This document shows positions 32,734 to 58,879 of a DNA stretch of 64,000 bases, piece by piece. Made by a program: the position numbers and the translations under genes. Where the stretch lies: the NCBI RefSeq assembly GCF_002305875.1, contig NZ_CP022098.1, positions 9,548,001-9,612,000 of the forward strand, written 5' to 3'. Within the stretch, counting starts at the first letter, position 1. The number at the start of each line of letters is the position of its first letter. Below the pieces are notes generated by a model. It had not been told where the DNA came from. It did no database searches and was given only the letters and a program-made list of their open reading frames with translations. The stretch is from Cystobacter fuscus. Lineage in GTDB: Bacteria > Myxococcota > Myxococcia > Myxococcales > Myxococcaceae.

Positions 32734-33949
32734 TGTCTCCCTCGAGGCCCGCGGGCGGCTCCAGGTCCAGCGTGGTGATGAAGTCCGTCTTGAGCAGGTC
32801 CGTGATGCCCTTGAACCCGTTGTAGACCGTCATCACCGACGCCTTGTCCCGCGCCAGCGCCTGCCGCAGGTCCTCCTCCTCCACCGCGGCCAGCGCCGAC
32901 TCGGCCTCCACCACCTGCTGGCGCATCCGCGTGGCCACGCCCTCCGCGCCCGCCGCCGCCAGGACGTCGTCGAAGCCCGTGCCCGTGAAGTCCGGGCCGC
33001 AGCCGTCCATGATGCGGCGGAAGCCCACCAGGTTCAGGTGCAGGTTCTGCTTCGAACGGCCCGCGAACTGCGACTCCAGCAACTCCGGGCAGATGTCCGA
33101 CGCGCAGTCGCGCAGCGCCAGCGGCCGCGCCAGCTTCTGGTCCTTGCCCTCGCGCTCCACGTAGAAGAGCGCGTCGCTCATCGCGTTGAGCGCCACCTGC
33201 GCTGTCGGGAACACCTTGTTGCCGGAGCCCGCCATCGCCAGCGTCTTCAGGAAGTTGCCGCCTTCCGGCGCCCACGCATCCACCAGGGCCCGCGCGCGCA
33301 CGTGCACGTCCGCTCCCACCACCGCCGCGTAGGCCCGCTTGCGCGCCGCCCGCTCGTCCACGGACAGCGCAGCCCACGTCCCCTGCGCCACGATGGCGGA
33401 GTTCGGTCCGCACGCCGTCTCCGCGCCCTCATAGAAGAGCAGGTACTCCAGCGCCAGGAACCCTCGCCGCGTCACCAGGCTGGAGGGGAAGCTGGCCGAC
33501 TCGTACCCCTTGGAGACGATCTGCTCCTCGAGGGAGCACCGGTTGTAGAGCGGGAACGAATGGATGTTGTCGCGGATCTCCGCGCCGCCCGGACTGCCGC
33601 GCGGCGCCGCGGGCCCCACCTGCATCGCCTCCATCACCTGCCAGACGTCCATGGCCTCGTGGAACGCCGTGCGCGCCGCCGCCTGGGCCGCCGCGTCCGG
33701 TGCGTCCCGCAGCGCCGCCGTCGCCGCCTGGAGCGCCGCGGCCCTGGGCAGGAAGTCACGCGCCGTCCCCAGGATGCACTCGCCCGCCGCGCTCAACAGC
33801 CGCGCGCGCACGTCCGCACCAGCACCGGGGGGAGGATCCACCGGCTTGGGCTTGCCGTCGCTGCACGCCACGCACAGCACCGCGATGAACCCCAGGGCCC
33901 TCACTCCCAGCCAGGAGGGCGCTTCAGGACGGGCTTTGAAGACAGTCAT
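32726..33949 (-). CDS. Imelysin-family (M75) lipoprotein
   Basis: 407 residues from the ATG at 33949, preferred over 33985 because GAGGG lies just before it. A signal peptide ends in a Cys (LCVAC), so it is probably a lipoprotein. The body is the four-helix imelysin fold: DFLPRAAALQAATAAL, a DVWQVMEAMQVGP segment, and GFLALEYLLFYEG, the conserved GxxxxEYLLF helix. Imelysin proteins sit in iron-repressed, envelope-linked uptake loci in many bacteria; a true peptidase activity is doubtful. Gene order (imelysin, HTTM, TonB receptor across the Fur boxes) fits. Confidence 0.88.
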   Translation of the reverse strand: MTVFKARPEAPSWLGVRALGFIAVLCVACSDGKPKPVDPPPGAGADVRARLLSAAGECILGTARDFLPRAAALQAATAALRDAPDAAAQAAARTAFHEAMDVWQVMEAMQVGPAAPRGSPGGAEIRDNIHSFPLYNRCSLEEQIVSKGYESASFPSSLVTRRGFLALEYLLFYEGAETACGPNSAIVAQGTWAALSVDERAARKRAYAAVVGADVHVRARALVDAWAPEGGNFLKTLAMAGSGNKVFPTAQVALNAMSDALFYVEREGKDQKLARPLALRDCASDICPELLESQFAGRSKQNLHLNLVGFRRIMDGCGPDFTGTGFDDVLAAAGAEGVATRMRQQVVEAESALAAVEEEDLRQALARDKASVMTVYNGFKGITDLLKTDFITTLDLEPPAGLEGDND

Positions 33950-33980
33950 GGCCCTCGCAGTATCAACCAAACTTGCGACT

Positions 33981-33993
33981 GACAATTATTATC
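33981..33993 (-). promoter_or_regulatory. Degenerate Fur-like site before imelysin gene
   Basis: GACAATTATTATC resembles the E. coli-type GATAAT-N-ATTATC core with one mismatch in 12 arm bases. It begins about 32 nt upstream of the imelysin start on the divergent side. Together with the three Fur boxes further upstream it would put both arms of the locus under Fur. Confidence 0.4.
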
Positions 33994-42116: not shown

Positions 42117-42608
42117 GGTGTTTTCCCCCGCGGTTGTCGCATGGGGCCTGGGGGGCAGCTCGACCAACGCTGTCGGCACCGGCCCGGGGCTCCTTCATGG
42201 AACCCCTACCCAACCTGAATCGAGCATCACATGGGCCCCTCTTGATGGGAACAACGTCAGGTGCGTGGGTTCCCTACCCTCCCCCATACCGGCCACTCCC
42301 GGCGCCGTGAGAGCACGGCCCCGGAGAGAGAAGCACTTTGACGCCAAACCAAGGAAAGAGACAGAGCCCTGAGTGCCTGCCTGGAGAATACCGGGGCGGT
42401 GCATGCCGCCGGCCCCCACCTTCGAGAGGGTGGAGCGGCACCCGCGCCAGGGCGGAGAGGAGAGGCTGGTAGTGCTGCAGACCGAGGGCGAGGAGCAGCA
42501 GCGGGAATCGGCGCATCCCGCCGTGCCAGCCTTCTGGGGTCGCCGTGTCAACCGTGATCGGCCGCGCGGCTCCTCCGCGTTGAAGATCGCCTTGGTGAGG
42601 TGGCGGCG
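42117..42608. other. Gene-free stretch
   Basis: This 492-nt stretch holds the MCP promoter near its left end (the MCP is read leftward) and the end of the leftward peptide-locus operon at its right. No frame resembles a protein family I know, and no obvious repeats were found. No clear terminator was recognised after the dioxygenase gene. Confidence 0.5.
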
Positions 42609-43448
42609 TCAGCGCTCGACCCAATGTGCGAAAAACGGTCTGGCGCGCTCCGGCATGGACTCGAAGGACGCCCGCGGAATCAGGGGAACCGAATTGTCCT
42701 TCCCCTTGGAATCACGCAGGAGCCGCTCGTATTCAGGTGAGTTCTTCCTCCGGAACTCGAGATTGAGCCACCACGCCGAGTAGCGCACGTTCAAGGCCAT
42801 CCTCGGCCCATCGCTCAGGTTCGGGGCGACGCAGTGCCACAGGCGACTGTCGTAGAACAAGACATCCCCCGGCTCGCCGACGGCAGTCACCTCCGCAGAG
42901 TGTGGTTCGAACTGCTCCGCGGGGCTCCCTCCGCTGGGATTGAAGGAGCGCCGGTGGCTGCCAGGCAACAGGATCGTTCCACCCGTCCGCTTGTTGAACC
43001 GCGACAGCATGAAGATGGCCGAGATGTTCATCGCGGCGTCGGGGTAGGGACTTGGAAGGGCCGTGGCGAGTTTCTGGTTGAAGGGCCAGTCGGCATGCCA
43101 GTAGCCCCGCTCGTTACCGGGATACGTGACGATGGCCCCAACCGAGGACACCCTGAAGTAACGGCCAAGCAGCGCCTCACAGGCCTCCATCAGACGAGGG
43201 TGCGTGACGTGGCTCGCCAGCTGGGGCTGGCGGTTGATCACCGCCTGTGCATGGAGGATTCCCTTGGGCGGCATCTGGAAACCGGCTTGTGAGATCCGCG
43301 AGACCTCCGCGGCCCATCCGGCGCTCTGCGCATCGAGTTCCCCGCGTACCGACTCCTGGACCTCGGGCAATTCCAGGGCCGGGATGATGCCATCCACGAC
43401 GCACCAGCCTTCTGCCCTCACACGCTCGACAATCTCATCGGTTCTCAT
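42609..43448 (-). CDS. Phytanoyl-CoA dioxygenase-family 2OG-Fe(II) oxygenase
   Basis: 279 residues. The facial triad is visible: H118-x-D120 in YWHADW and H205 in LWHCVAPN, with R216 (PRMALNVRY) positioned to bind 2-oxoglutarate. GTILLPGSHRRSF is the usual strand-turn of the family. Such enzymes hydroxylate or otherwise oxidise small molecules and some peptides. It is last in a six-gene leftward operon headed by a 59-residue peptide gene, so it may oxidise that peptide or a co-product. The substrate is unknown. Confidence 0.9.
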   Translation of the reverse strand: MRTDEIVERVRAEGWCVVDGIIPALELPEVQESVRGELDAQSAGWAAEVSRISQAGFQMPPKGILHAQAVINRQPQLASHVTHPRLMEACEALLGRYFRVSSVGAIVTYPGNERGYWHADWPFNQKLATALPSPYPDAAMNISAIFMLSRFNKRTGGTILLPGSHRRSFNPSGGSPAEQFEPHSAEVTAVGEPGDVLFYDSRLWHCVAPNLSDGPRMALNVRYSAWWLNLEFRRKNSPEYERLLRDSKGKDNSVPLIPRASFESMPERARPFFAHWVER

Positions 43449-43478
43449 GATGTCTTCCTCGCTTTCCCTGGGAAGGTT

Positions 43479-45275
43479 TCAGCTGCCCACCCTGAACTTC
43501 CGCATCCAGAGCCCGAAGCAGAGAATGCGCCAGAGCAACATCAGGACTTCCTTGTCCGCCCGGGCGGGTTCCCGGGCCAGGTACTCCACGGCCCGTACGT
43601 CGAACAACTCCGGCCGCTCGCGGACCACCTCCAACACCCCCTCTTTCAAGCCCTTGCCCGCTCCTCCCCTGAACCATCCCTCTTCCAGGGAGGAGTAGCT
43701 CCCCTTCCCATAGGGCTTGATGATGATGGGCGGGAGCAGGTGTTGCATCGCGCGGCGCAGCAGGTACTTCGTCTCGTCTCCGATGATCTTGTACGCGCCG
43801 CCCAACCCGATGCAGAAATCCACCACACGGTGATCCATGAAGGGCACGTGGGTCTCCACCCCATGCGCCATGCCAATCCGATCGTTGTGCCTCATCATCA
43901 TGGGCAGATCGCCGTGGAACACCCGGTAGCCGCAGAGTTCTCCGAGGTTGAAGCTCCGAGGGTTGGGCTCGAAGGCGGGGAGGCGCGCGGCCCGTTCCCG
44001 CAGGTCCGCCGTGAGCCAGGAGTACCGCTCCCTCCCGTCGAGCAACTCCGCCACCGGCAGGGAGGATCTCGAGGAGAGGCCCGCGCTGGCCCCGGCGCCC
44101 TGTCGGTGGAGATCGTCCTGGTGCGCCCGCACCATGCTCATGTAGCCGGCGAGCAGCTCATCGGAGCCCTGGCCGTCCAGGGTGGAACGAATACCCAGTT
44201 CTTCCGCCTGCTCGAAGAGCATCCATTGGGCGGCCAGACTCGCGCGGCCAAAGGGCTCGTCCATGTGCCACACGAGGGGGTCGAGCACATTCATGGCATC
44301 CTCGCCATGACAGTGACTCCGATGGTGGATGGCCCCCGTGCTCTCGAGCACCGCCTTCAGCAGGTGCGGCTCGTCGTACAAGGGGTCATCGAAGTAGGCC
44401 TTGAAGGTCACGAGCCTGTCCGCGGCGGACCCGGACCGCTCGAGCTCGGAGGTCAGCAGGGCGGCGATGGCGGAGCTGTCCAGCCCGCCTGAAAGACAGA
44501 GGCCCCTGGGCCCCGGCTGCGCCCAGCGCACACGAACCGCGTCGAGGAGCAGGTCTCGGAACCGCTCCACCGCCTCCGGCTCCTCCAGGCGAAGACTACC
44601 TGGCTCGGGAAGCTCGTACCACCTTCGCAATGGCGGAAGGGTCTCCGTGCAGCGCCACTGCTTCAAATCGAGTTGCAGACAGGTGCTTCCCGGGACACGC
44701 AGCACGTCCTGGAAGAGCGTTTCGTCGGAGTGGTCCGTCAAGCCCGCGACGAGGAACTCGAGGCCCGCCCGGGCATTCAACCGGACGTCCATCCCCCGCA
44801 TCGGTAGGAATTGCTTGATCTCCGAGGCGAACGCGAGGACCCTCGGACCCTTGTAGATGTAGAGGGGTTTGAGGCCGAAGCGATCCCGCGCGGCGAAGAG
44901 ACGCTTCTCCACGTCGTCCCAGATGACCAGGGCGAACATTCCGTTGACGCGAGAGAGACACTCGGCCCCCCATCTGGAAAAGAGGGCGGTCATGAGCTCG
45001 GAGTCGTCGAGCGTCGCTCCTGGAGGCACCTCGACCAGGCGGGACAACTCCTCGCGATTGTAGAGACAACCATCGAAGACGGTATGGAAGCGTCCGCGCC
45101 ACGGCTCCCTTCCCGTCTCCTCACGGGGCGCGGCATGGGCGCATTGCCACAGATGCACGGCTCCCGCCGGCGATTCGAAGACGTGCGGGCCGGACGAAAC
45201 CGGGCCCCGGTGGGCAAGGACGCGAGACATCCCTTCAGGGGGCTCGACGGCGACGGATACCCAGATGCCTCTCAT
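43479..45275 (-). CDS. Asparagine synthetase-like ligase, no glutaminase Cys
   Basis: 598 residues from the ATG at 45275. The two domains of class II asparagine synthetases are present: an N-terminal Ntn-type domain (1-200) with FALVIWD and LFAARDRFGLKPLY, and a C-terminal ATP-pyrophosphatase domain with SGGLDSS (262-268) and GQGSDELLAGY. Residue 2, the nucleophilic Cys in MCGI of AsnB, is Arg here (MRGIW), and the N-G of the glutamine pocket is D-G (FDGCLYN). So glutamine hydrolysis should be lost while acyl-adenylate chemistry remains. Beta-lactam synthetase and lasso cyclases (McjC) show the same loss and use an amine inside the substrate. It lies in the operon with a 59-residue peptide. 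Confidence 0.9.
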   Translation of the reverse strand: MRGIWVSVAVEPPEGMSRVLAHRGPVSSGPHVFESPAGAVHLWQCAHAAPREETGREPWRGRFHTVFDGCLYNREELSRLVEVPPGATLDDSELMTALFSRWGAECLSRVNGMFALVIWDDVEKRLFAARDRFGLKPLYIYKGPRVLAFASEIKQFLPMRGMDVRLNARAGLEFLVAGLTDHSDETLFQDVLRVPGSTCLQLDLKQWRCTETLPPLRRWYELPEPGSLRLEEPEAVERFRDLLLDAVRVRWAQPGPRGLCLSGGLDSSAIAALLTSELERSGSAADRLVTFKAYFDDPLYDEPHLLKAVLESTGAIHHRSHCHGEDAMNVLDPLVWHMDEPFGRASLAAQWMLFEQAEELGIRSTLDGQGSDELLAGYMSMVRAHQDDLHRQGAGASAGLSSRSSLPVAELLDGRERYSWLTADLRERAARLPAFEPNPRSFNLGELCGYRVFHGDLPMMMRHNDRIGMAHGVETHVPFMDHRVVDFCIGLGGAYKIIGDETKYLLRRAMQHLLPPIIIKPYGKGSYSSLEEGWFRGGAGKGLKEGVLEVVRERPELFDVRAVEYLAREPARADKEVLMLLWRILCFGLWMRKFRVGS

Positions 45276-45477
45276 TGGCAACACCCGCTCCCGGACGCCT
45301 GTCGTCACATTCCCGCATGTGCAGTCCAAGCAGGCGTCGAATTCTCGGACGTGCGGTACACCAAGACCTGCAGTCAACTGGTGGAGCGGAGTCACGACGA
45401 CGGCCCCGCGTCGGCCACGGAGGGTACCCACCTGCGGAGGGGGGTACCCTCCTGGCCTGGCGCGGCGACGGGGCCCG

Positions 45478-45786
45478 CTAGCGGAGCGTCGACGCGACCC
45501 GCTGGGTGGTCCGCACGAAGTCCTGCCAGTGGGTCACCGCGATGACCTCGGTCGTGCACTCGCCGAGCTCACCAATGATCTCCGCCGCCCGCTGCGCCTC
45601 CTTCTCGTCATCCGTCTCGACGACGTCGAGGGAATCGTAGGGGCCCCCATGGAATGCGAGCTTGAGGGTGCACCTGAGCTGGGGAAGCTCCTTGAGGGTC
45701 TTCTCCCGTACCGACTGCGCGCGCTGGGGCAACGAACGGAGGTCCGCGGCGTTCCTATATTTCGACAGGATGGCGTACTGAGGCAT
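45478..45786 (-). CDS. GYD-domain protein
   Basis: 102 residues, start with GGGAG before the ATG at 45786. The sequence follows the GYD pattern: MPQYAILSKY at strand 1, LAFHGGPYDSLDVVETDDEKEAQRAAEIIGELG, and a last strand TTEVIAVTHWQDF. GYD is a small ferredoxin-like alpha/beta fold of unknown role, often a dimer. It is between the HTTM gene (87 nt upstream) and the ligase gene (about 200 nt downstream) in the same direction. Confidence 0.8.
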   Translation of the reverse strand: MPQYAILSKYRNAADLRSLPQRAQSVREKTLKELPQLRCTLKLAFHGGPYDSLDVVETDDEKEAQRAAEIIGELGECTTEVIAVTHWQDFVRTTQRVASTLR

Positions 45787-45873
45787 GGGTCTCCCTTTCT
45801 TCGTGAAAAGCCACTTCTTCTGTCACACGTCTCGTGAAAGCACGGGCTGCGATACATCTCCCTCTGCTGCGAA

Positions 45874-47343
45874 TCAGAACAGTTGTCGCTCCTTTCCGTT
45901 GAGTACTGTTCCTTGTTCAGAATGAGGCGCCTCGGGGTCATCGGGCAGGATGAAGGGAAAGAAATTCACGGGAAGGCCACCACGGCTGCCCGGAAGCTTC
46001 CCACTCGTGTCGCCATCGACCTCGTGGCTTCCTTCCCGGTCCACGTAGCGGACGCGGAGGGGGTGACCCGGACTCATGGCGCGGGAAAGGCGAGAGAGCG
46101 ACTCGCGGAGGAAGTAGCGGGTATAGCGGTAAGCCTCGGGTTGGGACAGGACGCGATGCGCCAGGAGGGCCCCCGGGTCTCCCTGAAGGGTGGACACGGG
46201 AGGCAGCCCCTCGATGTGGGCGATCCGCACGTAGTCTGGCCCCTGGAAGAGCCGCCAGTTGCCAGGGATGAAGAGATGGCGCCACGGCTCGCAGCGGAGA
46301 TTGCTGAACATGGCGAAGCTGAACTCCGTCTTGAATCCCAGGTACGGCCCGAGACCGTTCACCAGGAACGCGGCCCACAACGTGAGCAACGTTCCCTGCT
46401 CGAGCGAGCCGAGCAGCGCCCAGCCCGGTACCTCCAATGAGCGCCAGGAGAGCATGCCGATTCCCAGCAACAGCAGCGCCGTTCCAGCGCCGAAACCCAA
46501 CTGGATGAGCCATGCGGGGGCACGCATCACGTAGGGACAGTGGCGGTTGGCATGACGAGGGGTCAGCACCCACACCACCAGGAGGCTGAAGCCACAGCTC
46601 GCCCCAATGACGAGGGGCGGCAGGGCGCGGACCTGGGCGGTGGCATCGAGAAGCGCCTGCTCCGGCACGAACGCCATCAACCCCGCGTACATCATCGACG
46701 AGAAGTTCACGATTCCCAGCAGGGCCATGCTGAAGTGGAACAGGACGCCCACTCCCAGCGCGAGGGGCCGCGTGGGTGGAAACAACAGCAGCAATGGCAG
46801 TGCTCCCTCCACGAGCACCGTTCCGTAGATGCCCACACCCCGCAAGAACCGGATGAGCCCCGGGCTGTGCACGCCGCGATCCCAGCAGAGAAAGTCGACG
46901 AGCTGGGATGCACAACTCCGCTCGGGCGAGAAGTAATCCGCGTTCAGCTTGTGGAGGAACGCGAAGAAGTAGGTGAGGACGATGAGGCCCTGGACGCCGA
47001 GGGACACGAAGGTCTCCATCTGCTCGACACCTCGCGCGAGACAGAGCGTCAACATCATGAACCAGGCCAGGATCAGGTGGTTCGAGAGCCGGAGCGAGTA
47101 GCTGGCGATGACCAGCGAGAGGAATCCGAGGCAGGTGAGCTGGAGCCATCCGGCCTGCGGCATGAACAGCAGCGCTCCACAGGTGGCCATGAGCCCCCCA
47201 TGCACCCAGGCATGGGCTCGCGGACCGAGGCGCAGACCGAACGTCGGAAGGAAGCAATTCGTCAGGTAGCCGAGGCCATCCCTGAAGATATACAGCGCCT
47301 CGTGGATGAGGATGGCGCCAGCAAGCATCCGGGTGAGGAGCAC
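45874..47343 (-). CDS. HTTM-like polytopic membrane protein
   Basis: 489 residues from a GTG at 47343 (GGAG upstream; TTG 47346 and ATG 47328 are alternatives). About ten to twelve hydrophobic segments fill the first ~380 residues. Shared HTTM-like signals include YFFAFLHKLNADYF followed by a cluster SPERSCAS, and YLGFKTEFSFAMFSNLR then WRHLFIP. A soluble C-terminal region of ~110 residues follows. SdpB, which helps process the SdpC peptide toxin, is also HTTM, so membrane-linked peptide processing has precedent. Here the gene is in a peptide-headed operon, just after the ferritin-like gene (30 nt). Confidence 0.8.
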   Translation of the reverse strand: MLLTRMLAGAILIHEALYIFRDGLGYLTNCFLPTFGLRLGPRAHAWVHGGLMATCGALLFMPQAGWLQLTCLGFLSLVIASYSLRLSNHLILAWFMMLTLCLARGVEQMETFVSLGVQGLIVLTYFFAFLHKLNADYFSPERSCASQLVDFLCWDRGVHSPGLIRFLRGVGIYGTVLVEGALPLLLLFPPTRPLALGVGVLFHFSMALLGIVNFSSMMYAGLMAFVPEQALLDATAQVRALPPLVIGASCGFSLLVVWVLTPRHANRHCPYVMRAPAWLIQLGFGAGTALLLLGIGMLSWRSLEVPGWALLGSLEQGTLLTLWAAFLVNGLGPYLGFKTEFSFAMFSNLRCEPWRHLFIPGNWRLFQGPDYVRIAHIEGLPPVSTLQGDPGALLAHRVLSQPEAYRYTRYFLRESLSRLSRAMSPGHPLRVRYVDREGSHEVDGDTSGKLPGSRGGLPVNFFPFILPDDPEAPHSEQGTVLNGKERQLF

Positions 47344-47373
47344 CAATGGATTCTCCGGGGCAGGAAGCCTGGG

Positions 47374-48132
47374 CTAGGCGCCATCGAAGGTGAGCGCCTC
47401 GAGCTCCTTCATCGTGAGGACGCAGAACTGCTCGAGCCTGCTGAAGAGCATGTCGCGGACGAGCTCCTCGGAGCCGTCGCGCGCCATGGCCTCCATCGCC
47501 TGCGCGGTGTAGGCGATGTGCCGTGTTTCATCCGAGGTGATGACGTCGAGCACTCCCTTGATGCGGGCATGTTGCTCCGGGGGACTGTGGCGCATGAGCA
47601 TCGGATACAGCAGGAGCTGATGGACCCGCGTGCGGATCTCCCCGATGTTCATCTGCACCAGCGCATCCAGGGTGAGCACTGGCTCCTCGGTGACCGCGCC
47701 TCGCTCTGGATGCTCGCGAACCGAGTAGCGCGGCGAAATGGCATCCAACTGCGCCTGGACATCCTCACCCGCACAGCCCGGGAACGCCAGACCGAGCATC
47801 GCGATGTAATAGCGGGCGTGGTTGGACTCGTCGATCGCATGGCGACGCACCTGCTCGGCGATGACCGGCGACTCGATGAGACCCGCCATCCGCCACAACA
47901 TGCGGGCCCCCTCGGCCTCCTTTTCCGCATTGGTGACCAGGGACCTCGCGAGCCAGGAGGGATCGGCTGCCTGCTCCCGGTAGGCCTCACCATACCAGCG
48001 CTTGCCGAAGGGCGGCGCGCACGCCTCGAAGGAGGCACACAGGAGCCGCTCATAGCTGGCCAGACCCCTGGCTCCGCTCGCTCTCAGGGCCTCGATGGTC
48101 AATTCCGCAATCACATTGGAGCTGGAACCCAT
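47374..48132 (-). CDS. Ferritin-like diiron oxidase-type protein
   Basis: 252 residues from the ATG at 48132 (GGAG upstream). All-helical. The likely metal set is E72 or E74 (EKEAEGA), E102-x-x-H105 (DESNH), a glutamate in MNIGEIRTR near residue 165, and E202-x-x-H205 (DETRH), so two E-x-x-H motifs in the right helices. The layout is close to diiron oxygenases and to ferritin-like proteins frequent in myxobacteria. It is second in the peptide operon, with 111 nt after the peptide stop, and could oxidise the peptide. A related but broken gene pair is at 12 kb. Confidence 0.85.
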   Translation of the reverse strand: MGSSSNVIAELTIEALRASGARGLASYERLLCASFEACAPPFGKRWYGEAYREQAADPSWLARSLVTNAEKEAEGARMLWRMAGLIESPVIAEQVRRHAIDESNHARYYIAMLGLAFPGCAGEDVQAQLDAISPRYSVREHPERGAVTEEPVLTLDALVQMNIGEIRTRVHQLLLYPMLMRHSPPEQHARIKGVLDVITSDETRHIAYTAQAMEAMARDGSEELVRDMLFSRLEQFCVLTMKELEALTFDGA

Positions 48133-48243
48133 GCGACTCGCTCTCCAGGGGCCGGGGCGGATGGCGGGAGCCATCCGCCCTCGTTGATTCGTTACCCGCG
48201 AAAGCCGGACCCGGCCGACGAGGGCGCTCTCTCGCCAGACTTC

Positions 48244-48423
48244 CTAGCGCTTTGGTACCCTGCACTCATCGAAGGGGCAGTTCCAGGCCACGAAGTTGTC
48301 CTGCCGCTTCGTGCCAATGTCTCCCTGCGTCAGCTTGACCTTCGCGGCCAAGGCGGAGTTTGCCTTCGTCACCTCGCTCCCACGAATGGGCTCGAAGGTG
48401 ATTGAGTCCTTGTCGACCGCCAT
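48244..48423 (-). CDS. 59-residue candidate precursor peptide
   Basis: The ATG at 48423 has GGGGG 7 nt upstream. The product has a charged leader-like part with FEPIRG and a C-terminal part with two Cys (49, 54) in NCPFDEC. In the second half LTQ precedes GDIGTKRQD: Thr32 is two residues before Gly34, and Asp42 is the ninth residue from that Gly. This is the lasso-peptide rule (Thr at -2, Gly1, Asp/Glu at 7-9). The core would be 26 residues. It is first in the operon with a glutaminase-dead asparagine synthetase. The leader lacks the usual YxxPxLxxxG element except for FEP, so the match is partial. Confidence 0.7.
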   Translation of the reverse strand: MAVDKDSITFEPIRGSEVTKANSALAAKVKLTQGDIGTKRQDNFVAWNCPFDECRVPKR

Positions 48424-48450
48424 GCTCGACCCCCATTTTGTTGGATTTAT

Positions 48451-48480
48451 TGCTATCCGCTCGAAGTGAACTGGATAGCA
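48451..48480. promoter_or_regulatory. Inverted-repeat operator in divergent promoter
   Basis: TGCTATCC and GGATAGCA are perfect 8-bp arms with 14 nt between. They are centred 43 nt upstream of the peptide gene and 78 nt upstream of the MmgE/PrpD gene, in the only promoter region of the locus. No regulator gene is in the cluster, so the factor is unknown. Confidence 0.7.
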
Positions 48481-48542
48481 CTGGCAGTATATGCGCTCAA
48501 TCATCCAGGTCAAGACATGGACGTCGTCTTTTGAGGCATGAG

Positions 48543-49922
48543 ATGGAACTCCAGCTCGCGGAACATGTCGTCCACACTCGGTACGAGGCGCTCGGAGAGG
48601 CAGTCATTTACTCAACAAAGAGCTTCATCCTCGACACGCTGGGAGTGTCATTCGCCGGGGCGCGCGTCGCGGCGGTTCAACCCCTGCTGGAGTATGTGCT
48701 GGAACAAGGCGGCCGTGGTGAAAGTACGATACTGGGCAATGGCACCCGGGTGGCCGCGGAGCAGGCCGCGCTCATCAACGGGACGCTGGCCCACGTATTG
48801 GACTACGACGAGACCCACGTGGCGGCGAACGTCCACGCCAACGCGACCGTGTTTCCCGCCGCCCTCGCGGTGGCGGAGCAGCGGGGGCGTGTCTCGGGAC
48901 GCGAACTCCTGACGGCCATCGCGCTGGGGGTGGACCTCACCTGTCGCCTGGGAGTCGCCGCCCGAGAGGGAATGAACGAGGGGTGGTGGCCCACCTCCTT
49001 GTTCGGAACATTCGGGGCGGCGGCGGCCACGGCCCGGCTGCTCGGACTCGATGTGCGCGGGGTTCGTCAGACGCTAGGGCTTGCCTATGCGCAGGCCATG
49101 GGCAACCGGCAGGCGTTGCTCGATGGGGGGGCCGCCAAATACTTGCAGTGCGGCCTCGCGGCTCGGGCGGCGGTCACCGCCGGGCACCTCGCCCGGGCTG
49201 GTTTCACCGGTGCGACCCGCTTCCTCTCGGGTCCGTTTGGATTGTCCGCGCTGTACACCGGTGGGGCCTTCAGCGAAGCCATCCTCCTCGATGGCCTGGG
49301 TCGGCGATTCCTCGGTACCGAGCTCATCTGCAAGCTCCACCCGTGTTGCAGTGCGGCGCAGGCGCCGCTCCAGGCCGCTCTCGAACTGATGCGTGACCAT
49401 CCGATCGACGCCCGGCGGCTGGCCGGAATCCGCGTTCTCGCGCCTCGGGAAGTGGCCGAGCAGCTCGGCCGCCCCCATGAGGTGGGAAGCACCCGAATCC
49501 AGCTCCAGGTCAACCTGCCCTATCTCGTTGCGGCCGCCATGGTGCGGAGGCGCTTCACCCTCCAGGATCTCGAGGAGGATGCTCTCCAGGACGACCCGGA
49601 AGTGCTCCAACTCGCCAGGCGAGTGACGGTCGAGGCGTCGAGCCCCTCGGGACCGCGCGGTGCGGAGCTGCCAGTCACGGTCGAACTCATGGCCAGGGAT
49701 GGAACACGCTGGCAGCGGACCCTGGAAGTTCAGGCGGGGGACCCATCCCGTCCGGATCTCCGTGAGCGCATCCTGGACAAGTTCCGATCCTGCCTTCGTC
49801 AGGGTGGAGAGGAGGCGCCGCGGGCACGGAGCGAGCAGCTCATCGAGAGGATTCTCCACCTGGAAGAGCTGGAGACACTGGACTGCCTCACCGAAGCGTT
49901 CGGAGCAAGGAGCAAGACATGA
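48543..49922 (+). CDS. MmgE/PrpD-family protein
   Basis: 459 residues from the ATG at 48543 (GAGG upstream). The all-helical N-terminal domain has DTLGVSFAGAR, ALINGTLAHVLDYDETHVAANVHANATVFPAALAVAEQ and the conserved DG-A-A-K-Y-L patch; the C-terminal lid has LKLHPCCSAAQAPLQA. The family contains 2-methylcitrate dehydratase (PrpD) and cis-aconitate decarboxylase. The proposed active-site D-E-T-H and K-L-H-PCC residues are present. The rest of the methylcitrate cycle is absent, so a private dehydratase/decarboxylase role is more likely. It overlaps the thiamine-diphosphate enzyme (ATGA). Confidence 0.92.
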   Translation: MELQLAEHVVHTRYEALGEAVIYSTKSFILDTLGVSFAGARVAAVQPLLEYVLEQGGRGESTILGNGTRVAAEQAALINGTLAHVLDYDETHVAANVHANATVFPAALAVAEQRGRVSGRELLTAIALGVDLTCRLGVAAREGMNEGWWPTSLFGTFGAAAATARLLGLDVRGVRQTLGLAYAQAMGNRQALLDGGAAKYLQCGLAARAAVTAGHLARAGFTGATRFLSGPFGLSALYTGGAFSEAILLDGLGRRFLGTELICKLHPCCSAAQAPLQAALELMRDHPIDARRLAGIRVLAPREVAEQLGRPHEVGSTRIQLQVNLPYLVAAAMVRRRFTLQDLEEDALQDDPEVLQLARRVTVEASSPSGPRGAELPVTVELMARDGTRWQRTLEVQAGDPSRPDLRERILDKFRSCLRQGGEEAPRARSEQLIERILHLEELETLDCLTEAFGARSKT

Positions 49923-51559
49923 AGGTCGCTGACGCAATCGCGCGGATCCTCAAGGCGGAAGGTGTCGAATATCTGTTCGCCTATCCCATGAACCCCATCA
50001 TCGAGGCCGCCGCGAACGTGGACATCCGGCCGATCATCGTGAGGCAGGAGCGCACCGGTCTGCACATGGCCGACGCGTTCAGCCGCATGTCCTCTGGCCG
50101 GCGCATGGGTGTCTTCTGCATGCAGAACGGTCCGGGTTCGGAGAACGCCTTCGGCGGCGTGGCGCAGGCCTATGGGGAGTCGGTGCCGCTCGTCGTCTTG
50201 CCCATGGGTTATCCGCGCTCGCATTCCGGCGTGAATCCCAATTTCAGCTCGACGCTCAACTTCCACCACATCACCAAGTCGGCCGAGCAGGTCCTGGTGC
50301 CCCGGGTCATTCCCGAGGCCCTGCGCCGTGCCTTCTTCCAGGCGCGCAATGGCCGGCCCCGCCCGACGCTGGTCGAGATCCCGAGCGATCTGTTCAACGA
50401 GGAGGTGCCCGAGCCCTGGCACTACCGCCCGGCACCGGAAGTCCGCTCGGCACCGGACCCGGCCGCTGTCGAGCGCGTGGCCGGTGTCCTGGTCGACGCC
50501 GCGCGGCCCGTCATCTACGCCGGACAGGGCGTCCACTACGCGCGGGCCTGGGCCGAGTTGAGGGCGCTGGCCGAGTTGCTCGAGGCGCCGGTCATGACCA
50601 GCCTCGGAGGCAAGAGCGCGTTTCCGGAGAATCATCCGCTCTCCCTCGGTTCCGGTGGCCGAGCCGTTCCTCGCACGGTGCACGCGTTCCTGCAGAGCGC
50701 GGATACCCTCCTGGGAATCGGTTGCAGCTTCACGAGCACCAAGTTCGGGGTGAAGGTTCCGAAGGGCAAGACACTCATCCACGCCACGCTCGATCCCTCG
50801 GACATCCACAAGGACGTCGAAGCCGAGCACGCGCTCGCGGGTGATGCCCGCCTGACGCTCGAGGCGCTCGTGCAGGCAATCCGCCAGAGGCTGGGGGGGA
50901 AGCCGCGCGGCAGAGCCGGCGACGTCACACGGCGGATCGCCGCCGTCAAGGCAGAGTGGCTGGCGACGTGGAGGCCCAAGCTCACCAGCAACGCGGCGCC
51001 CCTGTCTCCCTACCGTGTCATCTGGGACCTGATGCACACGGTGGATGTCGCGAACACCGTCATCACGCACGACGCGGGCAGCCCGCGAGATCAGCTCTCG
51101 CCATTCTGGGAGAGCATCACGCCGCTCTCCTACATCGGCTGGGGAAAGACCACGCAACTGGGCTACGGCCTGGGGCTGGCGATGGGCGCTAAGTTGGCGA
51201 GACCCGACCAGCTCTGCATCAACATCTGGGGTGATGCGGCCATCGGCTTCACGGGCATGGACTTCGAGACGGCGGTCCGCGAGCGGATTCCAATCCTCTC
51301 GATCCTCCTCAACAACTCCTCCATGGCGCTCGAGATACCGGTCATGCCGGTCTCCACCCAGCGGTACCGGAGTACGGACATCTCCGGCAACTACGCCGAC
51401 CTGGCGAGGGCCCTCGGGGGCCATGGAGAGCGCGTGACGACCCCCGAGCAGATCATCCCCGCCATCCACCGCGGCATCGCCAGGACGCAAGACGGCGTGC
51501 CCGCACTGCTGGAATTCATCACCGCCCAGGAGACGGAGTTCTCGTCGTTCCAGGAATGA
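49919..51559 (+). CDS. Thiamine diphosphate-dependent enzyme (ALS/POX fold)
   Basis: 546 residues in three domains. The N-terminal domain has the conserved glutamate in RQERTGLHMADAFSR, which activates the cofactor; the middle domain has PARPVIYAGQG-like turns; the C-terminal domain has the ThDP motif GDAAIGFTGMDFETAVRERIPILSILLNN, that is GD-x(n)-NN. It resembles acetolactate synthase and decarboxylases. No small regulatory subunit is near, so a decarboxylase or carboligase rather than valine biosynthesis is likely. It is coupled to the MmgE/PrpD gene, so the two may act on the same 2-oxo or polycarboxylic acid. Confidence 0.92.
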   Translation: MKVADAIARILKAEGVEYLFAYPMNPIIEAAANVDIRPIIVRQERTGLHMADAFSRMSSGRRMGVFCMQNGPGSENAFGGVAQAYGESVPLVVLPMGYPRSHSGVNPNFSSTLNFHHITKSAEQVLVPRVIPEALRRAFFQARNGRPRPTLVEIPSDLFNEEVPEPWHYRPAPEVRSAPDPAAVERVAGVLVDAARPVIYAGQGVHYARAWAELRALAELLEAPVMTSLGGKSAFPENHPLSLGSGGRAVPRTVHAFLQSADTLLGIGCSFTSTKFGVKVPKGKTLIHATLDPSDIHKDVEAEHALAGDARLTLEALVQAIRQRLGGKPRGRAGDVTRRIAAVKAEWLATWRPKLTSNAAPLSPYRVIWDLMHTVDVANTVITHDAGSPRDQLSPFWESITPLSYIGWGKTTQLGYGLGLAMGAKLARPDQLCINIWGDAAIGFTGMDFETAVRERIPILSILLNNSSMALEIPVMPVSTQRYRSTDISGNYADLARALGGHGERVTTPEQIIPAIHRGIARTQDGVPALLEFITAQETEFSSFQE

Positions 51560-51748: not shown

Positions 51749-54700
51749 TCAACGCGTGCTGGGGGAGATGCCGTGCAAGGGGGCATCGCTGCCCAGGGCA
51801 ATGAAGGGGGCCCAGTGATAGGGATGGTGATGGAGAGGGGAAGCGCGCAGTGAGCGCATAGCCTCACGCAGGGCGGAGGCTCGCCCCTGCCCCGCGAGCA
51901 GGTGGCGATAGTAGGCGTCCATGAGCAGGCGCGTGGAGTTGTCATTCACCTTCCACAGGCTCATGACGACGCTTTCGGCCCCGGCGACCACGAGGGCGCG
52001 GCGCAGGCCCTGAATGCCTTGGCCCAGGCGGACTTCACCGCGGCCGGTGTCGCAGGCAGAGAGGACGACAAGCTGGGTACCCCAGAGGTTCAGCCCGGCC
52101 AGCTCCAGGGCGGTGACGAGGGAGAAATCGGGCCGAGGAGCAGAGGAACTCGAGGCCGTGGAGCGTGCGCCCGCCAAGACGAGGCCGGAGTTGAGCAGGG
52201 GGTCCTGCTGGGGCGGAGGGGCGTTGCTCATCGACTCGCCGAAGAGGCCCACAGCGCGGGAGTTCCGTGAGGCCGGGACGTCGCCGAGGAAGAATCCATG
52301 GGTGGCCACGTGAAGGATGCTCGGGGTCGGTAGCTGGAAAAGGCGCTGCTTGGTCGCCTCGGGCCCCAGGAAGAGCTGGGCCTGGGGTAGCAGGCGTTGA
52401 ATGTCCAGGGCTTCCTGGCGTGTACCCGGCAGCGGCACCCAGGAGGAGGTGGGCAAGCCCGAGCGGGAGAAGAAGCGCGCGAGGGCGTCGGAGGACGGGG
52501 CGCGCGAAGAGGATGGGCTGGAAGAGGAAGGGGGGGCGGAAACAGACGCCGAGAAGTCCGGGTCGGCCAGGACGATGATGGAGGAAGTGGGGGGATTGTC
52601 TTGGGGACGAGGGAGGAACTGCCTGCCGGAGGTGAGGTAGGTGAAGTCGTAGGAGTTCAGCAGGAAGTCCTTGCCGTCGTGGAGGGCCGCGAAGGGGACG
52701 AGGCTCAACTGGCCGTCGGTAGACAGCAGGAGGCGGCGGGTTTTGCCCAGCAGGGGGAGCAGGGGCTGGAAGGCGAGCCGGTGAAGCCGCTGGGCGATGG
52801 CTTCGAAGGAGGCGTGCTTATGGGCCAGGGCGTCGCGCAGGCGAGAGGCGGCGGAGTCGATGAGAGCGGCGGAGCCCAGGTCCACGGCGCGGGTGGAGCC
52901 ATCGGGGAAGAGCACCAGGGCGAGGTAGCGCAGCGGCGCCGGGGTTGCCGCCACGGGTGTGCCGGGCTGGGGGACGAGAGGCGTGTCGCTGTAGGCGACG
53001 AACTCGACGAGGGCGCCGTCCTGGGGCAGGGAGGCGGCGACGCGCTCGACGATGTCGCTGGGGGAAGGCAAGGAGGAGTGGGAGCGCAGTCGAGCGGAGC
53101 GTTGGGCGAGGTCGGCTTCGAGCGCGTCGCCCTCGTCGGCCAGGGCCTTGAGTCGTTGTTGGTAGTCCTCGGGAGAGGGCGCGCCGGGGCCCGAGAAGGA
53201 CATGGAGGCCAGGTGGGTGCGCAGGGCGCGTAGGCGCTCGAAGGCGACGCGGTCCTCGGGGCCCAGGCTCTGGTAGACGGTACGGGAAATGTGGGCGGTT
53301 TCCTCGACAGAGCGGCCCTTGAGAAGGAGGGCGGTGCTCAGGGCCAGGTGTTGCACGCGGGCGTCCTGGGGATAGGCGCGCAGCAGGGCGTAGTTCTTCT
53401 CTTCCGCGTCACGCAGATAGCGGAGGAAGGAAGAAAGGCGAGACTCGGAGAAGTCGAGAGCCTCGTGACGCAGGCGCTGCTCGAAGAGGGAGAAGGCGCG
53501 AGTAAAGAGAGGAAGGGCATCGTCGAGGCGATGCTGCGCCAGGCGGAGAACGGCGAGGTTGTGGAGCGAGGAGGCGACGTCGGGGTGGCTGGGGCCGAGG
53601 GCGGCCTCCTGGAGGCTGAGTGCGCGCAGGTAGAGGGGCTCGGCCCGGCCGTACAACCCTTGTATCAAGTAGAGGCTAGCGAGGTTGCCGAGCGAGTCCG
53701 CGACGTCGGGGTGGCTGGGGCCGAGGGCGGCCTCGTAGATGGCGAGCCCGCGCTGCAAGAGGGGCTCGGCCCGGCCGTACAACCCCTGGTCCATGTAGAG
53801 GTTGGCGAGGTTGTGAAGCGAGGAGGCGACGTTGGGGTGGCTGTTGCCCAAGGCGGCCTCCTTGATGGTGAGTGCGCGCTGCAAGAGGGGCTCGGCCCGG
53901 CCGTACAATCCCTGGGCCTTGTAGAGGGTGGCGAGGTTGTTGAGCGAGAAGGCGACGTTGGGATGGCTGGGACCGAGGGCGGCCTCGTAGATGGCGAGCC
54001 CGCGCTGCAAGAGGGGCTCGGCCCGGCCGTACAACCCCTGGTTCCTATAGAGGACGGCGAGGTTGTTGAGCGAGTCAGCAACGGCGGGGTGGCTGTTGCC
54101 CAGGGCGGCCTCCTGGAGGCTGAGTGCACGCAGGTAGAGGGGCTCGGCCTGGTTGTACAACCCCTGGGCGGAGTAGAGGGTGGCGAGGTTGTTGAGCGAG
54201 TCAGCAACGGTGGGGTGGCTGTTGCCCAGGGCGGCCTCGTAGATGGCGAGCGCGCGCTGCAAGAGGGGCTCGGCCCGGCCGTATAACCCCTGGTCCATGT
54301 AGAGGTTGGCGAGGTTGTGGAGCGAGTCAGCGACGTAGGGGTGACTGTTGCCCAGGGCGGCCTCGTAGATGGCGAGCGCGCGCAGGTAGAGAGGCTCGGC
54401 CCGGCCGTACAACCCCCGGTCCATGTAGAGGACGGCGAGGCTGTTGAGCGAGGCGGCGACTTTGGAGTGGCTGTTGCCCAAGGCGGCCTCGCGGAGGGCG
54501 AGCGAGCGCAGCAAGAGGGGCTCGGCCCGGCCGTACAACCCCTGGACGTAGTAGAGGGCGGCGAGGTTGTGGAGCGAGTCAGCGACGTTGGGGTGGCTGT
54601 TGCCCAGGGCGGCCTCGTAGATGGCGAGCGCGCGCAGGTAGAGGGGCTCGGCCCGGTCGTACAACCCCTGGGTCTTGTAGAGAATGGCGAGGTTGTTGAG

Positions 54701-55066
54701 CGAGGAGGCGACGTCGGGGTGGCTGTTGCCCAGGGCGGCCTCGCGCAGGGCGAGCGCGCGCAGCAAGAGGGGCTCGGCTCGGGCCAGGTCTCCTTGCCTC
54801 CGATAGAGGTCTCCCATCAGGTTCAGGCAACTGGCGACGTCTCGGTGCATGCTCCCGAGCACGGCCTCTCTGAGTGCGAGCGCATGCTCGGCCCGCGCAA
54901 GTGCCTCGGAGTAATTGCCCGCGTCCTTGAGCTTCGTCGCCGCGTCAAAGTCGGACTGCGCCTCCAATAGCCGCGCATCTGGCCTCTCTTGACCGACCCT
55001 CCCTCCTACCGCACAACCCGTCCAACAAAGGACCACCACCATCATCCATGCGAGAACCTGACGCAT
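51749..55066 (-). CDS. TPR-CHAT protease-like lipoprotein
   Basis: 1105 residues from the ATG at 55066 (GGAGAAGAG before it). A signal peptide ends at Cys (CWTGC), so it is probably lipid-anchored although Trp at -3 is unusual. Eleven or so kinesin-light-chain-type TPRs of 42 residues follow (about 45-520), nearly identical, with consensus LYGRAEPLLQRALAIYEAALG. A helical linker leads to a C-terminal CHAT domain with the caspase-like pair His in HVATHGFF (~residue 923) and Cys in LSACDTGRGEV (~1005). Both catalytic residues are intact. CHAT proteases often act in cell-death or conflict systems; target unknown. Confidence 0.92.
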   Translation of the reverse strand: MRQVLAWMMVVVLCWTGCAVGGRVGQERPDARLLEAQSDFDAATKLKDAGNYSEALARAEHALALREAVLGSMHRDVASCLNLMGDLYRRQGDLARAEPLLLRALALREAALGNSHPDVASSLNNLAILYKTQGLYDRAEPLYLRALAIYEAALGNSHPNVADSLHNLAALYYVQGLYGRAEPLLLRSLALREAALGNSHSKVAASLNSLAVLYMDRGLYGRAEPLYLRALAIYEAALGNSHPYVADSLHNLANLYMDQGLYGRAEPLLQRALAIYEAALGNSHPTVADSLNNLATLYSAQGLYNQAEPLYLRALSLQEAALGNSHPAVADSLNNLAVLYRNQGLYGRAEPLLQRGLAIYEAALGPSHPNVAFSLNNLATLYKAQGLYGRAEPLLQRALTIKEAALGNSHPNVASSLHNLANLYMDQGLYGRAEPLLQRGLAIYEAALGPSHPDVADSLGNLASLYLIQGLYGRAEPLYLRALSLQEAALGPSHPDVASSLHNLAVLRLAQHRLDDALPLFTRAFSLFEQRLRHEALDFSESRLSSFLRYLRDAEEKNYALLRAYPQDARVQHLALSTALLLKGRSVEETAHISRTVYQSLGPEDRVAFERLRALRTHLASMSFSGPGAPSPEDYQQRLKALADEGDALEADLAQRSARLRSHSSLPSPSDIVERVAASLPQDGALVEFVAYSDTPLVPQPGTPVAATPAPLRYLALVLFPDGSTRAVDLGSAALIDSAASRLRDALAHKHASFEAIAQRLHRLAFQPLLPLLGKTRRLLLSTDGQLSLVPFAALHDGKDFLLNSYDFTYLTSGRQFLPRPQDNPPTSSIIVLADPDFSASVSAPPSSSSPSSSRAPSSDALARFFSRSGLPTSSWVPLPGTRQEALDIQRLLPQAQLFLGPEATKQRLFQLPTPSILHVATHGFFLGDVPASRNSRAVGLFGESMSNAPPPQQDPLLNSGLVLAGARSTASSSSAPRPDFSLVTALELAGLNLWGTQLVVLSACDTGRGEVRLGQGIQGLRRALVVAGAESVVMSLWKVNDNSTRLLMDAYYRHLLAGQGRASALREAMRSLRASPLHHHPYHWAPFIALGSDAPLHGISPSTR
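53560..54800 (-). repeat. Array of 126-bp repeats coding TPRs
   Basis: About ten consecutive 126-bp units encode the 42-residue TPRs and are nearly the same even at silent positions. They should be prone to recombination, so copy number may differ between strains. Confidence 0.8.
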
Positions 55067-55162
55067 CTCTTCTCCTGGCAGGGCCGCGTGACGCCAGTGC
55101 CGATTCAACGCGGCGTGAACCTGGCTCTTCTCGGGGTATTACACTTTACGCCGCCCCCTGCC

Positions 55163-55900: not shown

Positions 55901-56986
55901 CTAGGACTCGGAGTTCGAGAGGACCTCGGAGCGCAGGTCTGGGAAGACCTTGCCCACCTTGCCGAGCAGGTAGTCGCCGTAGGTGCCACGAAAGGCGTGG
56001 ACGCTCTGCCCGTCCCAGCGCTCGCTGGAGTCCTCGGCGGTGGCGACGCCACGAAGGGCCGGGGCCTCGAGGGGATGGACCTCGGCGGTCCAGCCGGGGT
56101 CGAAGAAGAAGGGCAGCGACAAGCGGTCGCGCCCGGAGCGGTTGAGCACCCGGTGCGGCGTGGAGCGGTACACGCCACGGGTCATGCGGTCGAGCATGTC
56201 ACCGATGTTGCAGACGAACGAGCCGGGGATGGGTGGCGCGTCCACCCAGCGCACCTCGCCGCCCATGCGGGACTTCACCTGGAGGCCACCGGCCTCGTCC
56301 TGCTTGAGGATGGTGAGCACGCCATAGTCCGTGTGCTCCCCAACGCCCCAGGCGGGCTGTCCGTCCCCGGCGGTGTCAGGTCCAGGCGGGTAGTTGAAGA
56401 TGCGGAAGAGCACGAGCGGATCGGCCATGGCCCCCGTGGCGAAGTACTCCTCCTCGAGGCCAAGGCTGAGCGCGATGCCACCCATGAGCGAGTGGCCGAG
56501 GCGGGTGAGCGCGGCCAGGTAGTCGAGCACGGCCTCGCGCAGACCGGACGGTTCACTCGGGAAGAGGTTGGGGCCATGGAGGGGCGTGCCGGCCCGGACG
56601 AGCGGATGGTCGGAGCCGAGCTCGGTCCCGAGATAGAGGCCCTCCTTGCGGTCGGGACGACCCGAGGTCAGCTCACCTCCCACGGGGAAGTAGCCCCGCC
56701 AGGCGGACCCGCCAAGCGCCATGCGGATGGCCATCTTCTCTTCCACGGGCAGCGCGAAGAAGCGGCGGCTCAATGCCTCCAGGCGCGTCTGGAGGGCCTC
56801 GTCGACGCCGTGACCGACGACGTAGAAAAAGCCGCTCTCCCGACAGGCGGCACCGAGCCGTTCCGCGACGGCTCGGCGCGCGGCGGCACCCGACGACGCG
56901 TCCACGAGCGCGCGAACATCGATGACAGGGACTTCAGTGAATCCATTGAAAGGAGTTCCTTCCCGAATACTACCAATCTCAGTCAT
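55901..56986 (-). CDS. Isopenicillin N synthase-like 2OG-Fe(II) oxygenase
   Basis: 361 residues from the ATG at 56986 (CGGGAG just before). The DIOX_N part begins [11 protein letters not shown] and has FFYVVGHGV. The iron site is H218-x-D220 (GEHTDYG) and H278 (STPHRVLN), with R288-x-S290 (RDRLS) for 2-oxoglutarate, so it is a 2-oxoglutarate user rather than a true IPNS. Substrates in this family range widely, and nothing nearby settles it. It is divergent from the M4 protease gene with only 48 nt between starts. Confidence 0.92.
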
Positions 56987-57034
56987 ACTCTCCCGCCCCG
57001 CGGCATCCCGCCGCGCATCAAGAGGAAACACTGT

Positions 57035-58879
57035 ATGCGGACCCGGATGCTCGCGGCATGCTTGTCACTCACTCTCTCGGCCTGTGGGACGGATCCGTCG
57101 GAGTCTCCCCCCCGTCAAGAGCGCGGCCTCGACTCCACCGGGGATATCCAGACCGCGCTCGCGGCGCTTTCCTCCGCCGAGGTCGTGGGCTCGTACGACG
57201 ATGGCGTTCCCTTCATGATCAAGGGCCGGCTGGGCGCCGCCCAGGGCCTCGCCGCGGGCGCGTCGTTGTCGGACATCGCCGCGGTGTTCCGCCTGCGCGC
57301 CTCCGACCTGGTGCGGACGCGCTCTCACCGGGACGAGCAGGGCCACACCCATACCCGCTATGGCCAGATGAAGAACGGACTGCCCGTGGTGGGCGGGGAG
57401 CTCATCCTCCACCAGGACTCCAATGGCCTCATCTACGCGGCCAATGGCTCGGCGCGTGACGGAGAGCAGGCTCCCTCCAAGCCCCTCATCGCCAGCGACG
57501 CCGCCAGGCTCGCCGCCCTGAACACCACCCCGGGCCGTCACCTCGAGGCCGAGGGCGAGCCGCGTCTGGTGTACGTGCGCTCCAGCCAGGACGACAAGTT
57601 GAAGCTGGTCTACGAGGTGGTGGTGACGGGCGAGGGCGAGACACTGCCCATCCGTGACCATGTGTTCGTCAACGCGGTGAGCGGAGCCGTCGAGCAACGC
57701 GGCTCGGACATCCACACGGCGCTCAATCGCAACGTCTCCTCGAGCAAGACCAACGACCCCATCGTGCGCGGGGAGGGAGACTCACCCACGGGCGACGTGG
57801 TCTTGGATACGACCTACGACAACCTGGGCGAGACCTACAACTGCTACAAGATCCTGTTCAACCGCGACTCGTACGACAACGCGGGCGCGCAAATGAAGGC
57901 CAAGGTCCACTACGGCACCAACTACGTCAACGCCTCCTGGGACGGCAACCAGATCCTGTTCGGCGATGGCGACGGCGTGAGGTCCCTGCCGCTCGGTCTG
58001 GACAAGGACATGACCACGCACGAGTTCACCCACGCGGTGACCCAGTACGAGTCCAACCTCGTCTACTCGCGCGAGACCGGAGGACTCAACGAGTCCCTGT
58101 CCGACATCTTCGCCAGCGTTTGCCAGAGCTGGGCCTCGGGCTCCTGGTCCTCGGACCCGGACATCTACAAGATCGGCGAGGACGTCTGGACGCCGGGGAC
58201 CGAGGGGGATGCGATCCGCTACATGGACGACCCGGCCAAGGACGGCGCCTCGATCGACTACTGGTCCAGCGGCGTGGGTGTCGTCGACGTGCACTACACC
58301 TCGGGCATCGGCAACCTGGCCTATGCGCTCTTGTCCAAGGGAGGCACGCACCCGCGCGGCAAGAGCACCACGGTGGTGACGGGCATTGGCGTGGAGAAGG
58401 CCGGCCGCATCTTCTACAAGGCCAACACGGACTACTTCACGATGTACACCCTCTACGCCCAGGCGAAGACATACACCGAACAGGCCGCGGCGGCGCTCGG
58501 CTACACCTCGGCCGAGATCGCCTCCGTGACGGCGGCCTGGCAGGCGGTGGGCGTGGGCGTCGCACCGCCCGCTCTCGCGCTGAGCAATGGCGTGGCGATG
58601 ACGGGCCTGGGCGCCGCCACGGGCGGCGCGCTGTACTTCTACCTGGACGTTCCAGCCAACAAGGCCTCCTCGTTCGTCATGAGCGGTGGCACAGGTAACG
58701 CGAACCTGTACGTGAAGGCTGGCGCCATGCCGACCACGACCGACTATGACTGCCGTCCGAACAAGAGCGGCAACGCCGAGACATGCGGCATCGCGGCGAA
58801 GACCGCGGCCACCCGCCTCTACGTGATGCTGCACGCCTCCAGCACCTTCTCGGGTGTCTCGCTCAAGGGCACCTATTAG
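57035..58879 (+). CDS. M4 metalloprotease (thermolysin-like), lipid-linked signal
   Basis: 614 residues from the ATG at 57035 (GAGG upstream). Signal peptide with SAC, so probably a lipoprotein precursor. A FTP/PepSY propeptide (about 30-220) has [20 protein letters not shown]. The catalytic domain carries the zinc motif HEFTH near residue 328 and the second ligand in [11 protein letters not shown] near 352; the active-site His lies in [11 protein letters not shown]. The C-terminal ~100 residues form a PPC-type beta domain. It is a secreted protease, as expected of a predatory or saprophytic bacterium. The propeptide should be cut off by the protease itself. Confidence 0.95.

Follow-up and report, generated by a model that had tools for sequence, protein, structure and literature searches.

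The window, meaning the whole stretch of 64,000 nucleotides that was analyzed, is part of a complete 12.35-Mb genome. Compared with 20 kb of another genome from its family (G039), DNA similarity was restricted to positions 42603-51553 of the window, a segment of about 9 kb with 82% identity that comprises exactly eight genes. These genes, and two short elements within the peptide gene, are listed by position.

42609..43448, minus strand: PhyH-family Fe(II)/2-oxoglutarate dioxygenase (PF05721, 5.7e-17)
43479..45275, minus strand: asparagine-synthetase-like ligase with a dead glutaminase site (C2 to R) and an intact SGGLDSS synthetase loop
45478..45786, minus strand: GYD-domain protein (PF08734, 2.7e-8)
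45874..47346, minus strand: integral membrane protein (about five hydrophobic segments in a hydropathy scan; no Pfam match; HTTM-like by eye only)
47374..48132, minus strand: predicted ferritin-like diiron protein P0002, candidate peptide-modifying enzyme (invariant E/H ligands)
48244..48423, minus strand: precursor peptide gene, candidate RiPP-like substrate (59 aa; 83% homologue; top profile rank)
48271..48294, minus strand: C-terminal core motif FVAWNCPF, residues 44-51 (family motif [FY]xAxNxPF)
48391..48402, minus strand: leader element I-T-F-E, residues 8-11, from alignment (I-[ST/K]-F-E in myxobacterial and cyanobacterial relatives)
48543..49922, plus strand: MmgE/PrpD-family protein, divergent to the peptide gene, conserved cassette member
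49919..51559, plus strand: thiamine-pyrophosphate enzyme of the PRK06154 family (above cut-off)

Since the similarity is confined to eight genes that include the peptide gene, the peptide belongs to a conserved cassette and is not a chance open reading frame. No recognizable peptidase and no exporter were found among the cassette proteins of the window. The end of the cassette is adjoined by a TPR-CHAT protein at 51749-55108 with about ten tandem 42-residue TPR units.

The minus-strand open reading frame (ORF) at 48244-48423 translates into the 59 amino acids MAVDKDSITFEPIRGSEVTKANSALAAKVKLTQGDIGTKRQDNFVAWNCPFDECRVPKR, with Thr32, Gly34, Asp42, Cys49, and Cys54 at the places where an earlier note on this DNA had put them. 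An 83% identical copy occurs at the matching location in G039, within the conserved cassette, and the frame is a real gene. Mismatches between the two copies by codon position amounted to 5/4/4 in residues 1-27 and 2/1/4 in residues 28-59, so that most changes fall in the N-terminal half and fewer in the C-terminal half. A match in Pseudomonas amygdali (L002, residues 40-59, 65%) was antisense to a LysR gene and was taken as chance, and a plasmid search with the peptide alone gave no match.

The gene directly downstream of the peptide gene encodes P0002, which has no Pfam match above threshold. Residues E72, E102xxH105, E165, and E202xxH205 are invariant in its family (alignments A2 and A4), and ferritin-like diiron oxygenases have this succession of ligands, E, ExxH, E, ExxH. 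Matches to the Pfam families of AurF, R2, desaturase, and MiaE were all sub-threshold, and a fold model from the single sequence was all-helical and poor, with a mean pLDDT of 44.8. As this model was poor, the ferritin fold is read from the ligand pattern and the weak Pfam matches, by which P0002 is predicted to be a ferritin-like diiron protein. It shares both features with the AurF, R2-like, and MiaE diiron oxygenases, but stays below their curated cut-offs. To our knowledge, the substrates of these known oxygenases are small molecules, proteins, or tRNA, and not RiPP precursors. The combination of a multi-iron oxidative enzyme with a short precursor resembles the MNIO (DUF692) RiPPs, whereas P0002 has no Pfam DUF692 match and carries ferritin-like ligands instead.

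A search of 195 genomes of the phylum detected clear relatives of P0002 with 33-39% identity in six additional genomes, and three further matches that were only weak at about 1e-6. A plasmid search added clear relatives in the same identity range in Rhizobium leguminosarum, R. rhizoryzae, and Dolichospermum, and no match was found in phages or viral contigs. The diiron profile matched nothing in 398 Pseudomonadota and nothing in 385 Alphaproteobacteria genomes. Among 394 Rhizobiaceae genomes, the enzyme profile alone retrieved one new divergent locus, G952, with an enzyme of 28% identity, and in 33 genomes of its genus the profile matched G952 only. The family is regarded as rare because the broad Pseudomonadota and Alphaproteobacteria surveys returned no match.

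The family sample consisted of 12 loci, the window and 11 others from myxobacteria, Rhizobiaceae, and one cyanobacterium. An ORF of 59-71 amino acids was situated immediately upstream of the diiron gene on the same strand in all 11 other loci examined; a short precursor thus stands beside the dedicated enzyme in 12 of 12 loci, and in eight of eight phylum genomes with a clear enzyme match. The peptide profile and the clear enzyme matches coincided in the same eight of the 195 phylum genomes, where the peptide profile had one unrelated match besides (E 0.025). The C-terminal motif [FY]xAxNxPF was present in 10 of the 11 first peptides, as FVAWNCPF in the window and G039, YFARNAPF in five loci, FFARNAPF in L057, and FVAMNSPF in Rhizobium. 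The exception was Dolichospermum, whose peptide has a partial core, FAIRN, after the double-glycine leader LSPNEMQQLNGG. In a six-frame scan of 12 loci covering 618,994 residues, the motif occurred ten times, always in family peptides, and the looser AxNxPF had no occurrence outside them. Shuffles of single peptides produced the looser motif at frequencies of about 0.0002 to 0.0014. The motif is internal and is followed by 2 to 12 residues up to the C-terminus; outside it, distant family peptides have low pairwise similarity. Near the N-terminus, I-[ST/K]-F-E recurs in the myxobacterial and cyanobacterial peptides and is absent from the Rhizobium pair. The family combines a conserved leader element and a core motif, as RiPP precursors do, with Rhizobium lacking the leader element and Dolichospermum having a partial core.

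The upstream ORF of G952 contains FMACNSPF and LTFQL. The motif thereby recurred as predicted at a locus outside the set that had defined it, which had been found through the enzyme profile alone, and there the peptide and enzyme form an isolated pair with no other family gene nearby. This minimal two-gene unit comprises L080:9545-10402 and the upstream ORF L079:2223-2435 on the minus strand, and the peptide carries the near-repeat FLACNMAFMACNSPF. Profiles of distant relatives that included G952 and excluded the window peptide ranked the latter first of 1112 window ORFs, with E-values between 0.025 and 0.27, while it ranked first, second, or outside the top four with earlier profiles lacking G952. 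Such a ranking would be a weak argument alone, and a strong one together with position. The window peptide belongs to the family and shares its gene pairing.

Pfam assignments of the type-A context were made on L053 as the representative, and other loci were assigned by blastp clustering. The type-A loci L052-L056 encode an enterochelin-esterase-type hydrolase, HlyD, an ABC exporter with a C39 peptidase, a second ABC protein, and JmjC_2. L057 has these neighbors in part, JmjC_2 being limited to the five type-A loci among these, and a JmjC_2 neighbor also occurs at the Dolichospermum locus. As an example of the type, L053:663-10229 contains the YFARNAPF peptide, the diiron protein, the hydrolase, exporter genes, and JmjC_2, and has the appearance of a full RiPP-like cluster with export. 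In the Rhizobium loci, the peptide-diiron pair lies beside an intact asparagine synthetase, TauD, a nucleotidyltransferase, phosphonopyruvate decarboxylase, and PEP mutase. The common denominator across lineages is the diiron protein with the peptide.

The strict pairing, the conserved N- and C-terminal elements, and the two-gene unit of G952 would fit equally well if the peptide were a small accessory subunit or chaperone that serves the stability or a small-molecule activity of the diiron protein. This is judged unlikely, given that an exporter with a C39 peptidase adjoins the peptide in type-A loci, that the cyanobacterial peptide has a canonical double-glycine leader, and that the middle part and the C-terminal tail are variable, as expected for leader-core precursors.

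The ligase of the cassette was described in the earlier note as lacking its glutaminase like lasso cyclases. The domain itself is present (Pfam GATase_7, 1.6e-27), so that this holds for its activity only: the catalytic Cys is lost (M-C-G-I to M-R-G-I, Cys2 to Arg), as is HRR, and NGE has become DGC, all of which are kept in the Rhizobium homologues. With the catalytic residue gone and HRR and NGE degenerate, the domain is considered dead. The ligase scored above the cut-off of the general asparagine synthase model TIGR01536, and with the lasso cyclase model NF033535 it scored 226 bits, short of the cut-off at 525, which places it outside the lasso-family cyclases as this model delimits them. 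The best solved relative is 7ylz, annotated as a hydroxyamidotransferase. The dead glutaminase suggests that the amine coupled to a carboxylate by this enzyme is not ammonia, and this amine partner may be intramolecular or a small molecule in place of glutamine-derived ammonia. In the nitrilobacillins (pes cluster), which are RiPPs, an asparagine-synthetase-like enzyme acts on the peptide beside non-heme iron oxidizing enzymes, namely MNIO and HExxH enzymes, and its working glutaminase delivers glutamine-derived ammonia to the peptide C-terminus (PMC13060819). The window cassette likewise pairs predicted iron oxidizing enzymes with an asparagine-synthetase-like enzyme, but its oxidizer is ferritin-like by prediction, the core is unrelated, and the functional glutaminase of a nitrile synthetase is missing (Cys2 to Arg, NGE to DGC, HRR lost).

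The earlier note had considered a lasso or lasso-like peptide with a nine-residue macrolactam. In this reading, the ligase would close the ring between Gly34 and Asp42 once the leader is cut off after Gln33. The spacing of T32, G34, and D42 does fit such a ring, the ligase is without a working glutaminase as lasso cyclases are, and it matches NF033535, if below the cut-off. When the rule was scored as T(-2)/G(+1)/[DE](+7 to +9), it was satisfied by 4.4% of shuffles of the window peptide, a share that fell to 1.1% when Asp was required at +9. Of the 304 window ORFs with 40-100 amino acids, 5 satisfied the wider rule; the residue pattern is not beyond chance. Among relatives, only the 83% identical copy in G039 satisfied the rule and none of the ten other family peptides did. 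Conservation of Gly34, Asp42, and Thr32 in homologues, which had been named as the check, is absent beyond this copy, and a different core, [FY]xAxNxPF, is kept in their stead, an outcome that the note itself had listed as refuting. An alignment (A3) in which Gly34 seemed conserved was set aside because Gly and Asp are spaced by 8 in the window peptide, as against about 17 to 20 among relatives. Furthermore, the myxobacterial type-A loci have no asparagine-synthetase-like gene, and the ligase passes the cut-off of TIGR01536 and not that of the lasso model.

The absence of B1/B2 (RRE and transglutaminase-like peptidase) had already been remarked upon. Neither of the two cassettes encodes such a protein, and a Pfam scan of further window proteins, which took in part of the small ORFs outside the cassette, detected none. 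The peptide has FEP and no YxxP, as had been observed, and FEP corresponds to the family leader element I-[ST/K]-F-E. The locus therefore resembles McjBC-type lasso loci in its short precursor, its ATP-dependent asparagine-synthetase-like ligase without a working glutaminase, and a chance match of ring residues, and differs from them in a cassette that lacks B1/B2, in the missing YxxP, in rule residues that are unconserved in the family, in its other conserved core, and in a ligase under the lasso cut-off. It is very improbable that the window peptide is a lasso peptide, and the macrolactam reading is given very little credence. What agrees with the data is the further option of the note, another peptide type, namely a candidate precursor of a modified peptide with a family core of its own.

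In pearlin-type pathways, a small molecule is built on a peptide scaffold and then released. Enzymes of small-molecule type near the window peptide (the thiamine-pyrophosphate enzyme, MmgE/PrpD, GYD, and PhyH proteins) and the PEP mutase, phosphonopyruvate decarboxylase, and nucleotidyltransferases beside the Rhizobium pair would suit such a scaffold role, with the peptide later cut off and a small, non-peptidic cassette product. A LanB-like peptide aminoacyl-tRNA ligase is nevertheless missing among the cassette proteins, and the conserved motif is internal and not terminal, which makes this role rather improbable.

A RiPP-like precursor family, defined by a dedicated downstream diiron protein that oxidizes the NxPF core, is the best explanation of the whole and is held with fairly good confidence. 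The diiron protein is taken as the primary modifier and NxPF as the target because nearly every lineage has both, and G952 has them with no other family gene nearby. Judged from these sequence comparisons, the diiron protein probably oxidizes its neighboring peptide in the family as a whole, and for the window we strongly infer that the peptide is the substrate of P0002. The ORF at 48244-48423 would yield a precursor with an N-terminal recognition leader and a C-terminal core. P0002 would bind the leader, for which I-[ST]-F-E is a candidate handle, and carry out an O2-dependent oxidation on or beside the invariant Asn of [FY]xAxNxPF (FVAWNCPF here). Other cassette enzymes may subsequently modify the peptide or link a small building block to it. 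Candidates are the PhyH dioxygenase and the ligase, and the latter would activate a carboxylate for reaction with an amine in place of glutamine-derived ammonia. The type of reaction, the residue it targets, and the contributions of the accessory genes are proposals, and Asn as the exact target is a guess, rather less likely than not.

RiPP classes are recognized through hallmark enzymes. Whether the family amounts to a new class seems evenly balanced. In such a class, an AurF/R2-type diiron enzyme would be the defining modifier and would alter the Asn of [FY]xAxNxPF in an O2-dependent manner. Its partners would differ by lineage: JmjC and a C39 exporter, genes for phosphonate building, or, in the window, a glutaminase-dead ligase, which may couple the peptide with a small molecule. 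A literature search for a ferritin-like RiPP class gave no match, with most subscription literature outside its scope, so that priority is not proven. The peptide family is scattered over bacteria and apparently undescribed. If the diiron protein oxidizes the peptide, the product would be a natural product of a new type, made ribosomally and modified by an enzyme. Loci marked by the diiron protein would escape mining based on RRE or MNIO, and the two-gene unit and short motif make the chemistry testable. The Rhizobium loci also point to possible phosphonate-decorated ribosomal peptides, for which the Rhizobium plasmid loci L050:9798-19755 and L051:4462-15959 are candidates; a literature search for phosphonate RiPPs gave no match.

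Elsewhere in the window, an HTTM/vitamin-K-dependent-carboxylase-like protein is encoded beside an imelysin-type M75 peptidase at 31288-33985, unrelated to the cassette. A 2-oxoglutarate oxygenase ORF at 55901-57031 on the minus strand overlaps the upstream part of a longer plus-strand ORF at 55997-58879, which encodes a thermolysin-like M4 protease whose real start is probably well downstream.
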